Source of the DNA: Patescibacteria group bacterium
GTDB taxonomy: Bacteria > Patescibacteriota > Patescibacteriia > Buchananbacterales > GWA2-38-13
DNA: 45,735 nucleotides
NCBI GenBank assembly: GCA_028712155.1
Contig: JAQTQO010000007.1
Coordinates: 1 to 45,735, forward strand
Reading direction: 5' to 3'
In this document: one piece after another, positions 40,314-45,735 of the stretch
Position numbering within the stretch: the first letter of the stretch is position 1
Layout: each line of letters opens with the position of its first letter
Position numbers and translations under genes: made by a program
The notes under the pieces: generated by a model
The model's database searches: none
What the model was told of the DNA's origin: nothing
Seen by the model: only the letters and a program-made list of their open reading frames with translations

Positions 40314-42683
40314 ATGAAAAAATCCCTACTGTTCGTAGCTGTTATTTTTGCCGGCTCCTTAATTCTCAGTTTAACGGTTCGCGCTGCCACGACTATTTCG
40401 GTGCCGCCGGATACGCTGATCAAAGGCGAAAGTTTCCCCACAATTTACTACTACGCTTCCGACGGCGGAAGATACGTTTTCCCCAATGGCCAAACCTACG
40501 GCAGCTGGTTTTCCGATTACAATAAAGTCGTAACCATTTCGGACGCCGAGCTCGCGCAAATTCCCTTGGTGGGCAACATCACGTACCGCCCCGGCGTCAG
40601 AATGATCAAAATCCAGACGAGTCCGAAAGTTTACGTGGTGGAAAAAGGCGGCGTATTGAAGTGGGTGGAGAACGAAGATATCGCCAAAAAACTCTACGGC
40701 AACGATTGGAATCAAATGATTGATGACGTGCCGGACGTATTTTTTGTGAACTACAAGACAGAAGGTTCGGTGAAAGATTCGGTGGAATACCAGCCGACGA
40801 CGGTCGCTTCCTCGGCACCAACCATCAACGACGACAAAGGCTTAATCAGGGGCGCGGGTGCTCCTGCGGCTGATACCACGGTCGGGAGTTCAACGACCAT
40901 CCCGGCAACTCCGGCCACCCCGCATCCCGGCTCCGGCACGCCCGCAACTCCCGCGTCTCCAGCGCAGCCCGGCCAAGCGACCTCCACACCCCCCATGACC
41001 GATACGCCGACCTCAACACCGTCGGGCGCAATCCCCGCGACCCCGGCTACGCCCGCCACGCCATCGAGCGGCGGCGGGGGCGGTGCGGCCACGCCCGCAA
41101 CGCCGGCCACACCCGCCACCCCACCATCAGGAGGAGCGGGTACCGTGCCAGGGCCGGATACGTTTCCGCCGATTATCACCAACGTTCAAGCGACGAGCAC
41201 GGAAACAACGGCAACCATCACCTGGCAAACGAGCGAAATGTCAAATAGCGTCGTCATCTACGCACTCGCCTCGATCAGCACGGCCTCGACCACCGTCCGC
41301 CTGTCCAGCGCCGAGAACGTCCTCTCACATGCGATGACCCTGTCTGCTCTCAGCGCTTCCACAACGTACTACTATCTGGTTGTTTCAAGTGACGCCGCCG
41401 GGAATACGGCAACGAGCACGCAATCAAGTTTCGCCACACTGGCTCCGCCGCCACCCCCGCCTCCGCCCCCGCCGCAACAAGAGTACGTGCTCCATAAATT
41501 TTATGGCGAGGGCAGCTCGGTATTCTTCGGTTCAGCCATCGCCTACGCCGATGTCAACGGCGACGGCAGAGACGACGTCATCATCGGCTCTCCGTCATTG
41601 ACGTCAAGCGCATACCGCTCGGGCAGCGTCTACGTCTACTCCGGCGCGGATTATAATTTACTGCACCGCTTTGACGGTGAAAATGCCAGTGACCGGCTGG
41701 GATTTCGCATCGCTGCCGGTGACGTAAACGGCGACGGCAAGGCCGATATCATCGCGACCGGAGCTAATAAAGTCTACATCTACTCCGGCGCGGATTACTC
41801 CCTGCTCCACCGCTTTGACAGCATCACTTCAGGCGATGGTTTTGGGTCCGCCATTGCCGCCGGCGATGTGAATGGTGACGGTAAAAAAGATATTGCGGTA
41901 ACGGCGTTCACCGGCCAAACGAACGCCGTCATCAAAATATACGTCTACTCCGGCGCAGATTACTCCCTGCTGCATACGTTCGATGCATCGGTGATGAGCG
42001 GATGGTTCGGCGAAATAATCGCCTTCGGGAATATCAACGGCGACGGGAAAGCCGACCTCATCATCAGCGCGCGCAACCGGGGCGGCAGCGCTGGCGCCAC
42101 CTGCTCAAACGGCGGGGCGACCTCGGATAGCGTGTACGTCTTTTCCGGCGCTGACTTTAGCCTCATCCGCCGCATCGACGATTCGACCACGGGCGAGAAC
42201 TTTGGCGTTTCCCTCGCGTCAGCCGGGGATGTGAATGGTGATGGGTTAGACGACATCGTGGTCGGCGCCGCCACTGCGTCATGGACCGGGTGCGAGACGG
42301 GCAGTGTCTATGTCTACTCGGGGGCTACCGGCGAGCAACTGTACCGTTTTGACGGCAATGCCCCCCCGGAAACGTTTGGCGCCTCGGTGGCTTCAGCCGG
42401 CGATGTCAATCGCGACGGCAGGTCCGATATTATCATCGGCGCCCGCGACAAAGACATCAATACCTTCACCGATATGGGCAGCGCGTATATTTATTCCGGC
42501 GCTACCGGCATCGCGCTGTTTCAATTGAACGGCGAAGCGGCCAACGATCATTTTGGCGATGTCGTCCTGGGCGGCGCCAGCTTCGATAGCCTTGACAAGG
42601 CTGATGTTATGGTCGGTACGATGTTCGCGTCACCGGGCGGCACCCATTCAAAAGGAGGCGTCTACCTCTTCTCTCTGCCGTAA
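40314..42683 (+). CDS. Secreted FG-GAP repeat (integrin-like) surface protein
   Basis: The 789-residue protein has a signal sequence (about 1-24, ending VRA). The N-terminal domain (about 25-155) contains DTLIKGESFPTIYYYASDGGRYVFPNG and MIKIQTSPKVYVVEKGGVLKWVENE. A long Thr/Pro/Ala linker with TPATPATPA repeats (about 190-275) leads to a fibronectin type III-like domain (PIITNVQATSTETTATITWQT, about 283-375). After a poly-Pro spacer come seven FG-GAP/VCBS repeats with calcium loops of the form DVNGDGKxD and the phrase VYVYSGADYxLLHRFD. This is an exported, calcium-binding beta-propeller. Adhesion to another cell is the likely role. Confidence 0.88.
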   Translation: MKKSLLFVAVIFAGSLILSLTVRAATTISVPPDTLIKGESFPTIYYYASDGGRYVFPNGQTYGSWFSDYNKVVTISDAELAQIPLVGNITYRPGVRMIKIQTSPKVYVVEKGGVLKWVENEDIAKKLYGNDWNQMIDDVPDVFFVNYKTEGSVKDSVEYQPTTVASSAPTINDDKGLIRGAGAPAADTTVGSSTTIPATPATPHPGSGTPATPASPAQPGQATSTPPMTDTPTSTPSGAIPATPATPATPSSGGGGGAATPATPATPATPPSGGAGTVPGPDTFPPIITNVQATSTETTATITWQTSEMSNSVVIYALASISTASTTVRLSSAENVLSHAMTLSALSASTTYYYLVVSSDAAGNTATSTQSSFATLAPPPPPPPPPPQQEYVLHKFYGEGSSVFFGSAIAYADVNGDGRDDVIIGSPSLTSSAYRSGSVYVYSGADYNLLHRFDGENASDRLGFRIAAGDVNGDGKADIIATGANKVYIYSGADYSLLHRFDSITSGDGFGSAIAAGDVNGDGKKDIAVTAFTGQTNAVIKIYVYSGADYSLLHTFDASVMSGWFGEIIAFGNINGDGKADLIISARNRGGSAGATCSNGGATSDSVYVFSGADFSLIRRIDDSTTGENFGVSLASAGDVNGDGLDDIVVGAATASWTGCETGSVYVYSGATGEQLYRFDGNAPPETFGASVASAGDVNRDGRSDIIIGARDKDINTFTDMGSAYIYSGATGIALFQLNGEAANDHFGDVVLGGASFDSLDKADVMVGTMFASPGGTHSKGGVYLFSLP

Positions 42684-43349: not shown

Positions 43350-44075
43350 TTACAGTTGTTGATAGAGAGTCATAAAAATTTTCCGCTGCATAGCGGCGAA
43401 GGTCGGGCTCTCAATGATGACTCCCGTTTCATTGATGGCATCGCCGAATGCAACTTTGTCGGCGTAAATGGCCATGAGAATGTTCTCGCGCAGCAGATCG
43501 GATCCGGCCGGGACCACTTTATAGGAGCGATTCATGTTGGACGTTTTCTGCCAATCAGCAAGCGCATCGGTGATGACGAAGCGCTGAATATGATTGGTCG
43601 TCTGCCAATGCTGAAAATCGGTAACCAGGTGACGGCCCATCGCCGCAATTGCTTGCTGTGAACAGTAGCGGTAGTACGTGTCGCCGGATTTCAGCGTGTG
43701 CTGGATATCCTCGAGCACCCCGCGCATACCATTCCGGCCTTCCCAGAATCTCACCATCGGCCGACGGCCTTGGTGTTGGTGCATTGCTTTGAGTACCGGG
43801 AGCAACTTTTCATACTCCGCCTTCAATGTGCCAAAGATGAACTGTAACTTTTCCGGCGATTCGGCATGATAAAATTTTTGCCTCCCCTTCGGCGCCACCG
43901 TCACGAGGTTTTTCTTTCGTAAGCCGGAAAGGGCGGTGTAGACGGTAGGGCGATGGAGGCCGGTATCCCTGCCGAGGTGGGAAACTAGTAATGAGCCCCG
44001 TTCAAGCAACGAAAGGTACACTTGTGTTTCCTGCTGGGTTAAACCAAGGTTTCCCAACAATTCTACCGTGTCCAT
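43350..44075 (-). CDS. TrmB-like transcriptional regulator
   Basis: This 241-residue protein has an N-terminal winged helix of TrmB type (about 5-70, NLGLTQQETQVYLSLLERGSLLVSHLGRDTGLHRPTVYTALSGLRKKNLV) and a C-terminal domain of unknown ligand (about 100-241) with a phospholipase-D-like layout around RFWEGRNGMRGVLEDIQ. TrmB-type regulators usually sense sugars or other metabolites. The gene is divergent from the RiPP precursor operon. TTACACAAAAGTGTAA in the shared region and an AAAAGTGTAAAA half-site near its own start are the obvious operators, so it probably controls both itself and that operon. Confidence 0.85.
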   Translation of the reverse strand: MDTVELLGNLGLTQQETQVYLSLLERGSLLVSHLGRDTGLHRPTVYTALSGLRKKNLVTVAPKGRQKFYHAESPEKLQFIFGTLKAEYEKLLPVLKAMHQHQGRRPMVRFWEGRNGMRGVLEDIQHTLKSGDTYYRYCSQQAIAAMGRHLVTDFQHWQTTNHIQRFVITDALADWQKTSNMNRSYKVVPAGSDLLRENILMAIYADKVAFGDAINETGVIIESPTFAAMQRKIFMTLYQQL

Positions 44076-44077
44076 AT

Positions 44078-44213
44078 AAAAGTGTAAAAATTAATTACAA
44101 TAATGAAAAGTATACATTATCTGCTAAAAAAAGCAATTTTTAGCATTTTCACCATAAGAAAATTACACAAAAGTGTAAACTTGCTTGACGAATTTTACTA
44201 TCAAGCTTAGATT
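44078..44213. promoter_or_regulatory. Divergent promoters and palindromic operator of the RiPP locus
   Basis: Rightward promoter: TTGACG (44185-44190), 17 bases, TAGATT (44208-44213). A perfect palindrome TTACAC-AAAA-GTGTAA lies at 44163-44178, 6 bases before the -35. Leftward, TTGCTT-N16-TATACT (about 44142-44115) serves the TrmB-like gene, and the half-site AAAAGTGTAAAA (44078-44089) lies between that -10 and its start codon. Confidence 0.7.
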
Positions 44214-44282
44214 AACATCCAGTTTGTTTACGCGGCTCTTTGACAATGGCGCCAAGACGCCACCTTTTGGGAGAAAACCATC

Positions 44283-44333
44283 TTGCCCCGCCCCTACCCC
44301 AAACCGCCCGAACCGGATGACCCGGAAGCCTAG
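44283..44333 (+). CDS. Possible 16-residue Pro-rich leader ORF
   Basis: A TTG-started frame with GGGAGA about 7 bases upstream encodes MPRPYPKPPEPDDPEA and ends at TAG 44331. It lies between the promoter and the first precursor gene. The start is weak and translation unproven, so it is listed only as a possibility. Confidence 0.25.
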   Translation: MPRPYPKPPEPDDPEA

Positions 44334-44403
44334 AGGCCTTTCACGCGCGCCCCACCGACTTCGACGAGTCGTTGTGACTCGTCACGCTTCCCTCATGTTG
44401 TTC

Positions 44404-44416
44404 GCGCCATAGGCGC
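44404..44416 (+). promoter_or_regulatory. Hairpin before the Shine-Dalgarno of precursor A
   Basis: GCGCC-ATA-GGCGC is followed by AAGGAGA and, after a 4-base gap, ATG 44428. The same block precedes precursor B. Confidence 0.7.
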
Positions 44417-44427
44417 AAGGAGAAGTC

Positions 44428-44619
44428 ATGCACCCCACGTCCGACTCCGTCCTGATGGGCGACCACATCGCCGTGAGCCAGCCTGCGGTCTGTGTCGAGT
44501 TCGACGCCGCCGGCAACCCCACCGCCACGCTCGACGAGGAGTTCGTCGCGGCCAACTGCGAGTGCTCCGGCTGCGAGAACAACACCGGCGACGACGGCAT
44601 CTGCGGCAACGATTGGTAG
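44428..44619 (+). CDS. Putative RiPP precursor peptide A, Cys-rich core
   Basis: The 63-residue peptide has a variable N-terminus, a conserved leader stretch (VEFDxAGNPTATLDEEFVAA, residues 23-42) and a core NCECSGCENN with TGDDGICGNDW at the very end. Core cysteines are 44, 46, 49 and 59, with a terminal Trp63. Gene B, 49 bases downstream, is nearly identical over the last 40 residues while the N-terminus differs. A short acidic peptide with a Cys-rich end, followed by a radical SAM gene, is the typical layout of a modified-peptide precursor. AAGGAGA precedes the start. The core chemistry (thioether, Trp link or other) cannot be told from sequence. Confidence 0.8.
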   Translation: MHPTSDSVLMGDHIAVSQPAVCVEFDAAGNPTATLDEEFVAANCECSGCENNTGDDGICGNDW

Positions 44620-44642
44620 TCTCCGTTCCTTCCCCACACGGT

Positions 44643-44659
44643 TTGCGCCCTCGGCGCAA
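44643..44659 (+). promoter_or_regulatory. Hairpin before the Shine-Dalgarno of precursor B
   Basis: TTGCGCC-CTC-GGCGCAA is followed by GGAGA and ATG 44669. It matches the hairpin before precursor A. Confidence 0.7.
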
Positions 44660-44668
44660 GGAGAAATT

Positions 44669-44866
44669 ATGCGTGACCGTCCGTCCGATTTCATCGCCTG
44701 TCTGAACCCCCGCCTCTCCGTGAGCCTGCCCGGTGTCCGTGTCGAGTTCGACGACGCCGGCAACCCCACCGCCACGCTCGACGAGGAGTTCGTCGCGGCC
44801 AACTGCGAGTGCTCCAGCTGCGAGAATAATCCCGGCGACGACGGCGTCTGCGGCAACGAGTGGTAG
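44669..44866 (+). CDS. Putative RiPP precursor peptide B, Cys-rich core
   Basis: The 65-residue peptide has an N-terminus that differs from precursor A (MRDRPSDFIACLNPRLSVSL) but shares VEFDDAGNPTATLDEEFVAA and the core NCECSSCENN with PGDDGVCGNEW. Core cysteines are 46, 48, 51 and 61, with Trp65 last. Between the copies the leader stretch has one change and the core only a few conservative ones (G/S, T/P, I/V, D/E). Such a pattern points to selection on the leader and on the spacing of Cys, Asn, Gly and Trp. The frame is open further upstream (to 44492), but Shine-Dalgarno and hairpin fix ATG 44669. The radical SAM gene starts 20 bases after the stop. Confidence 0.82.
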   Translation: MRDRPSDFIACLNPRLSVSLPGVRVEFDDAGNPTATLDEEFVAANCECSSCENNPGDDGVCGNEW

Positions 44867-44886
44867 ATACCGAGGAGAAAACTCCG

Positions 44887-45735
44887 ATGACGGAGTTGCA
44901 CTACAAGACGGCCCAACACTCGTACCTGTTCGAGTGGCCTGACGCGATCGTGGTCGTTTCCGGCCTGACGGGTTACATCGGCGCCTACCCTACCGGCACC
45001 TCCTCCCAGCTGAACGCGGTTTACCGTGATCCCTCGCAAATCACCCCGGCTTTTCGGGAGCGCTTCCCCGAGCTCTTCGAGCAGCTCGTGTTTCTGCCCG
45101 TCAACGTTGATGAGCGCCGCGTTGTCGCCGAGATCCTCCGGAAGTCCCGCTGCAAGCACAAGAAGCCGGCCTTTGTCCTGCAGCTCACCGAGCTGTGCAA
45201 CCTGTACTGCAAGTACTGCTACCAGGAAAAGCATCCGAAGTTCATGTCGGCGGCAATGGCCGAGCGCGCCATCGCGTACATCTTGGGTCACGCGGATGCA
45301 GCGGACCATCTCACGGTCACCTACTTCGGCGGCGAACCGCTGCTCGCGTTCGAGCGCATCCGCCAGATCCACACGGCGGTTCTCTCCGCCCGGCCTTCCG
45401 CACGGTTCACGATCATCACCAACGGCACGCTGTTCGATGATGCCATGGCTTCTTTCTTCCAGTCGACCAAGAAGCTCGGCAGCGTTCAGCTCACCATTGA
45501 CGGCGACCGTGTGCATCACGACGCCCTCCGGTGCCACCGCAACGGTACCGGCTCATACGACGAGATCCGGCGCGCCCTCCCCGCCTTGGCCCGGTCGTGC
45601 GAGAACCTCTCCGTTCGCGTCAACGTCACGGCCGACAACCGCGATTCGATTCCGAATCTGCTGTGCGACCTCGACGCGATTTCCACCCACCGCGGCCTCG
45701 AAAACATCCACGTGTATCTCGCGCGGGCCACTCCG
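44887..45735 (+). CDS. Radical SAM maturase of the RiPP locus, 3' partial
   Basis: The frame is open from ATG 44887 (AGGAGAAAACTCCG just before it) to the end of the window: 283 residues so far, no stop reached. Residues 1-90 are an N-terminal region (MTELHYKTAQHSYLFEWPDA) that may be a recognition domain. The radical SAM cluster motif CNLYCKYCYQ has Cys104, Cys108 and Cys111. TYFGGEPLL (about 144-152) is the SAM-binding GGE motif, and ITNGTL and QLTIDGD follow, as in anSME/SPASM-type peptide maturases. The SPASM part would be beyond the window. Position after the two precursor genes makes it the likely modifying enzyme. Confidence 0.88.
   Translation, partial: MTELHYKTAQHSYLFEWPDAIVVVSGLTGYIGAYPTGTSSQLNAVYRDPSQITPAFRERFPELFEQLVFLPVNVDERRVVAEILRKSRCKHKKPAFVLQLTELCNLYCKYCYQEKHPKFMSAAMAERAIAYILGHADAADHLTVTYFGGEPLLAFERIRQIHTAVLSARPSARFTIITNGTLFDDAMASFFQSTKKLGSVQLTIDGDRVHHDALRCHRNGTGSYDEIRRALPALARSCENLSVRVNVTADNRDSIPNLLCDLDAISTHRGLENIHVYLARATP

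Follow-up and report, generated by a model that had tools for sequence, protein, structure and literature searches.

A compact operon of two paralogous Cys-rich precursor peptides and one radical SAM/SPASM enzyme in a Patescibacteria group bacterium, a highly probable RiPP locus

Among the radical SAM/SPASM enzymes, QhpD makes thioethers between Cys and Asp or Glu. The RiPP maturase PapB joins Cys to the beta carbon of Asp or to the gamma carbon of Glu in CXnD/E motifs with n = 0–6, and it requires mainly the leader and the two residues to be linked (PMC9413430). In the Candidate Phyla Radiation, graspetides were presented as a RiPP type new to that group (PMC8939145), and one survey states that its Patescibacteria genomes held no biosynthetic clusters (PMC11613949). 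Reduced small-genome bacteria have been reported with few or zero biosynthetic clusters, and radical-SAM-modified peptides are barely documented in the group to which the present host belongs.

In the current study, we analyzed what is very probably a previously uncatalogued compact operon belonging to the known class of radical-SAM-modified peptides. The window, meaning the whole stretch of DNA that was analyzed (45,735 nucleotides), is an entire contig (C16) and terminates inside the radical SAM gene, the 3' half of which was found on a second contig (C27). The features are as follows, with window positions for all except the last.

43350–44075, minus strand: TrmB-like winged-helix regulator of 241 aa (PF01978), divergent from the operon
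44122–44145, no strand: perfect inverted repeat with 9-bp arms, TGCTAAAAA-N6-TTTTTAGCA, in the regulator–operon intergenic region, found by script
44163–44178, no strand: palindrome TTACAC-AAAA-GTGTAA, candidate operator, single occurrence in the genome
44185–44213, plus strand: promoter-like site TTGACG-17-TAGATT of the peptide operon, from a consensus scan
44404–44424, plus strand: hairpin GCGCC-ATA-GGCGC with Shine-Dalgarno AAGGAGAA before precursor 1; folds, one of two such blocks in the genome
44428–44619, plus strand: precursor peptide 1, 63 aa (leader block 44494–44556, core 44557–44616)
44645–44665, plus strand: hairpin GCGCC-CTC-GGCGC with Shine-Dalgarno AAGGAGAA before precursor 2; folds, the other such block
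44669–44866, plus strand: precursor peptide 2, 65 aa (leader block 44741–44803, core 44804–44863)
44887–45735, plus strand: probable radical SAM/SPASM RiPP maturase, first 283 of 476 aa (RRE-like aa 1–92, CX3CX2C aa 104–111)
Contig C27, L003:8719–9480, minus strand: 3' half of the maturase with the SPASM domain, overlapping the window end

The initial annotation had described two Cys-rich peptides with a shared leader and core and differing N-termini, the same hairpin and Shine-Dalgarno block before each, a radical SAM gene within 20 bases, and a palindrome at the promoter, and this layout was confirmed. Both ORFs are present, with 42 of 65 alignment columns invariant, mostly within VEFDxAGNPTATLDEEFVAANCECSxCENNxGDDGxCGNxW. 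The pattern GCGCC-N3-GGCGC-AAGGAG occurs in exactly two copies in the 1.44-Mb genome, one ahead of each precursor; the enzyme ATG at 44887 lies 20 bases past the stop codon of precursor 2; and the palindrome was found at its single genomic position.

The leader block common to both precursors, VEFDxAGNPTATLDEEFVAAN, is near-identical, and it is followed by the core C-E-C-S-x-C-E-N-N-x-G-D-D-G-x-C-G-N-[DE]-W, which holds four Cys in 20 residues and an invariant C-terminal Trp. The two modules can be aligned from the hairpin through the stop codon, with more divergence in the N-terminal ~20 residues. Between VEFD and the stop, the copies differ at 7 of 126 bases, distributed as 6/60 in the core versus 1/63 in the leader stretch (P = 0.06). 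Two of the six core changes are silent (the Asn pair) and four alter the amino acid (G/S, T/P, I/V, D/E), with none at Cys. On sequence comparison, the pair appears to have arisen by a recent duplication, after which the leader was conserved while the core drifted, as is usual in RiPPs; since the leader stretch has no silent differences between the copies, recency or gene conversion accounts for its identity as much as selection does. The codon-position GC of the precursors (0.60/0.48/0.95 and 0.63/0.49/0.88) is coding-like and agrees with that of the enzyme gene. Neither peptide matched any Pfam or NCBIfam model.

Concerning translation, precursor 1 ends in a stop codon immediately followed by TCTCC, a sequence able to pair with the ribosome site GGAGA ahead of precursor 2 (window 44619–44663), and this pairing, if formed, would couple translation of both peptides. 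The enzyme's own ribosome site forms the fold GGAG-AAAA-CTCC, which, speculatively, could reduce enzyme output relative to the precursors. An Rfam search of the 5' region found no known RNA, and the 5' leader as a whole is not unusually structured (z −0.44), in contrast to the local hairpins.

The palindrome overlaps the −35 element in the leftward promoter-like site, and 6 bp separate its end from the −35 element in the rightward one. Because the window holds 28 perfect 6-4-6 inverted repeats, the palindrome is notable only by its position between divergent promoter-like sites. The 9-bp repeat TGCTAAAAA-N6-TTTTTAGCA, absent from the initial annotation, might serve as a second operator or form a structure on the side of the regulator; it is less GC-rich than the remaining 9-6-9 repeats of the window, some of which resemble terminators. 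The regulator gene itself sits just outside the interval annotated initially. Its product scores 51.9 bits on PF01978 (TrmB; cut-off 25.6) and falls below every TrmB/TrmBL1 equivalog cut-off; it has many distant homologues, the best at 37% identity, and no orthologue was found in related genomes. TrmB-like proteins are abundant in the host's group (58 of 74 genomes). Control of the operon by this regulator, or its membership in the locus, is plausible from the divergent adjacency and the palindrome. The 789-aa protein encoded near the regulator (window 40314–42683) is probably secreted; it contains FG-GAP repeats and a linker rich in Pro, Thr and Ala.

The joined enzyme of 476 aa was obtained from two contigs. 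The last 180 bases of the window match the end of C27 at 175 positions, with 5 mismatches, the final 92 bases being perfect and the overlap in frame. A contig break within a gene, the differing overlap bases and the failure to find orthologues might suggest that the halves belong to different genes or that the locus is a degraded island; such an artifact or remnant is nevertheless very unlikely, since each half is present once in the genome, the reading frames are intact with coding-like codon composition, and the joined protein has all the expected motifs. The radical SAM motif CX3CX2C is present as CNLYCKYC at aa 104–111 (PF04055, 52.4 bits versus 29.5). The seven-Cys SPASM motif is complete (C331-x13-G-x4-C350, CX2CX5CX3C at 388–401, and C415), and the joined enzyme scores 30.9 on the TIGR04085 SPASM model, for which the cut-off is 27.

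AlphaFold models were made of enzyme aa 1–283 (pLDDT 88.6) and aa 1–92 (pLDDT 92.6). In these models, the N-terminal domain consists of an antiparallel beta-sheet and then a helical bundle, as reported for the RRE of SkfB (PMC6231123). In a Foldseek comparison of the 92-aa model with the PDB, the top matches were mostly RREs (TigE, TbiB1 with leader, PbtF), with CteB, SuiB, MccB and lasso B1 lower; the E-values are modest, ~0.03 and above, and the evidence lies in how consistent the matches are. These data indicate that the N-terminal 92 aa resemble a leader-binding RRE-type domain in the model, the binding being predicted.

A hairpin and T-run lie directly 3' of the enzyme stop codon, and the operon ends there; the next C27 genes include those encoding an unassigned protein of 212 aa, an LpxC-like protein and a methyltransferase. 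It had been proposed initially to extend the contig past 45735 for the SPASM domain, a transporter and a peptidase. The full SPASM domain was indeed found on C27, and no transporter or peptidase was recognized in the next 8.7 kb among the genes read or scanned. With the complete SPASM domain from the missing 3' half and the RRE-like N-terminal domain, the original reading as a RiPP locus gained support, and we hold with high confidence that this is a RiPP maturase operon. The annotation had also considered that the downstream region might reveal an anaerobic sulfatase activator; this identity was rejected, as the enzyme scores 76.1 bits on sulfatase maturase TIGR03942 (cut-off 349), its N-terminal domain is RRE-like, and no sulfatase was recognized in the flanking genes examined. 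A foreign origin of the operon was likewise not supported, its codon-position GC resembling that of a purL-like gene on C27. The LpxC-like domain on C27 (L003:6943–7791; 38.3 versus 27 bits) is a separate observation, lipid A enzymes being unexpected in a small-genome bacterium.

The peptides might instead give rise to a cofactor or act as small structural subunits; precedents are quinohemoprotein amine dehydrogenase, with its thioether-bridged gamma subunit, and PQQ/mycofactocin. The quinohemoprotein amine dehydrogenase maturase model TIGR03906 gives 82 bits (cut-off 453), and the lack of a recognized nearby transporter or peptidase would suit such a role; however, no partner dehydrogenase was recognized on either side of the operon, and two diverging copies fit peptide products better than a cofactor source, so that we consider this reading quite improbable.

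Scoring of the joined enzyme against NCBIfam missed all curated family cut-offs by far. The best family was PapB (NF047865), at 146.6 bits and E 1e-42, which is under half its cut-off of 340. It was followed by the geopeptide maturase (101.8; cut-off 400), Nif11 (98.0; 518.7), CcpM (96.2; 500) and SCIFF TIGR03974 (95.6; 425), and the RumMC sactipeptide maturase gave 70 bits. From these sequence scores, the enzyme fits the broad radical SAM/SPASM RiPP maturase kind and lies outside every curated family. The initial annotation had stated that the core matches none of SCIFF/ranthipeptide, sactipeptide, streptide, PQQ and mycofactocin. The exclusion of ranthipeptides is uncertain, since the ranthipeptide maturase PapB is the nearest family and the core contains a CX3E motif, a type that PapB crosslinks. 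The repeated CX3D/E motif of the PapB family is absent, with one CX3E per core and the other Cys–acid spacings at 0, 2, 5 and 6.

These comparisons bear on the chemistry. In a sactipeptide-type product, the Cys thiols would be linked to the alpha-carbons of other core residues and not to Asp/Glu side chains. The nearest PDB structure is CteB by sequence, by profile and by fold, SkfB is also among the nearest structures, each core has four Cys, and the SPASM enzymes of both chemistries have the same fold. In typical sactipeptides, the hairpin has its donor Cys N-terminal and its hydrophobic acceptors C-terminal. The core here lacks that arrangement, and PapB leads widely (146.6 versus the next 101.8 bits, with RumMC at its 70), so sactipeptide-type linkage seems unlikely. 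A different modification, such as a cyclophane, an epimerization or a single C-C link at the C-terminal Trp, might leave the Cys free for metal or disulfides: the terminal Trp is invariant, the cyclophane maturases YhhB and FxsB score 65 and 61.6 bits, and CxCx2C with the fourth Cys could bind metal. The usual cyclophane spans three residues. The terminal Trp lacks the two following residues that a three-residue cyclophane needs, and the cyclophane families reach less than half of the PapB score; only a low probability is given to this option.

Cys thioether formation by the enzyme is the preferred reading, and we regard it as likely. Every core Cys has an acid within n = 0–6 downstream, and the acid near the last Cys differs between the copies (D or E). 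Acids make up 25% of the core, so that one close to each Cys is expected by chance, and among the Cys-to-acid offsets of 12 precursors only +3 was mildly enriched (P = 0.02, uncorrected over seven offsets). Because this is weak evidence, confidence in thioethers stays at that level, and Asp/Glu as the acceptors is proposed tentatively, at somewhat below even chances.

The explanation that we consider best, and on the whole probable, is a compact operon with an RRE-guided maturase that forms Cys thioether rings, most likely to Asp/Glu. The two paralogous precursors would be translated from the hairpin-flanked ribosome sites, followed by the one radical SAM/SPASM maturase, whose N-terminal RRE would bind the leader block. 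A SAM-derived radical would then take hydrogen from a core residue that serves as the acceptor, where ring closure by a Cys thiol would yield a thioether; each ring would lower the mass by 2 Da, and a peptide could hold as many as four. As with PapB, the acceptors would most likely be the side chains of the conserved Asp/Glu located after each Cys; in precursor 1, C46-x3-E50 and C59-x2-D62 are examples. Leader removal and export would be carried out by enzymes encoded elsewhere, and the product would most likely serve as a secreted or surface peptide for cell–cell interaction.

Relatives of the peptides were searched in samples of 143, 380 and 381 own-phylum genomes (partly overlapping), IMG/VR and plasmids, and precursor orthologues were found only in the own genome. 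No enzyme orthologue was found in the same own-phylum samples or among the top relatives that the genome collection yielded, and within these samples conservation of the peptide and enzyme pair was seen only as the two internal peptide copies. A scan of the collection with the enzyme N-terminal half, limited by exact short patterns, confirmed no relatives; with alignment A3, under the same restriction, 432 relatives were collected, of which the best 80 are ~22–36% identical in their best segments, with no orthologues. The peptide profile found nothing convincing in the flanks of the collected loci beyond the own locus, and plasmids and phages yielded distant radical SAM proteins only, with no plasmid peptide match. 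Two matches to the peptides were attributed to chance: L007 in IMG/VR, antisense within a phage portal-like gene, and G281 (E 0.005), located within a frame of 1111 codons and weaker when scored a second way. No matching description of the operon was found in the literature; the term "undescribed" used initially thus holds for the databases, genomes and literature searched, which gave no peptide match, orthologue or matching paper.

Related radical SAM enzymes occur in 41 of the 380 own-phylum genomes (E 1e-7, own included), or ~1 in 9, and many adjoin Cys- and Asp-rich peptides unrelated to these precursors. A separate candidate RiPP family comprises peptides of 52–61 aa at L039:1688–1846, L040:4819–4977, L066:4295–4453 and L070:4056–4241; their leader stretch has the pattern E-x-[LM]-P-x-G-x4-[KR], their core reads CCGxx[YF], and they are encoded immediately 3' of radical SAM/SPASM maturases. 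L066 and L070 are from Saccharibacteria and carry enzymes and peptides resembling those of L039 and L040. Other short ORFs rich in Cys and Asp, unrelated to these and having ribosome sites, abut radical SAM/SPASM genes in the same phylum (L041:3415–3540, L047:3443–3568, L049:1063–1218, L055:4925–5044, L057:3361–3558, L058:5158–5346, L167:2142–2267).

The operon, together with several unrelated pairs of radical SAM enzymes and Cys-rich peptides in the sampled genomes of the same phylum, suggests that thioether-type RiPPs have been overlooked there, because the precursors are tiny, fast-evolving and under every curated model. The operon might even represent a new radical SAM peptide subclass of the small-genome bacteria in this phylum, with a four-Cys, acid-flanked core and a ring pattern unlike PapA or SCIFF, as one of many unrelated Cys/Asp-rich loci kept for contact with hosts or rivals, although we consider this rather doubtful. 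The interest of the locus is moderate and comes chiefly from the host group; being compact, with two peptides and one enzyme, it is easy to test by co-expression.

In comparison with known systems, the graspetide clusters (PMC8939145) are RiPPs predicted in the same broad small-genome group, but they use ATP-grasp ligases and form lactone/lactam rings, in contrast to the radical SAM chemistry proposed here. QhpD is likewise a radical SAM/SPASM enzyme, whereas the score obtained lies far below the cut-off of its model (82 versus 453 bits) and dehydrogenase subunits were not recognized near the operon. The maturases of geopeptides, CcpM, TIGR04463 and Nif11 Cys-rich peptides resemble the present enzyme in standing beside short, often Cys-rich peptides and in scoring 92–102 bits; all these scores are far under the cut-offs of 400–525, and the precursors belong to none of these families. 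CteB/CteA (SCIFF) shares the RRE, radical SAM barrel and SPASM domains and the Cys thioether formation proposed here, and it provides the nearest solved structure, whereas SCIFF precursors have six Cys in ~45 residues, compared with four in 20 here, and the present precursors have no SCIFF match. The closest likeness by score is to PapB/PapA, of the freyrasin-type ranthipeptides, which also combines radical SAM and SPASM domains with a Cys/acid core; PapA, however, has six CX3D/E motifs, whereas each core here has one exact CX3E, the leaders are unrelated, and two precursors accompany the enzyme.
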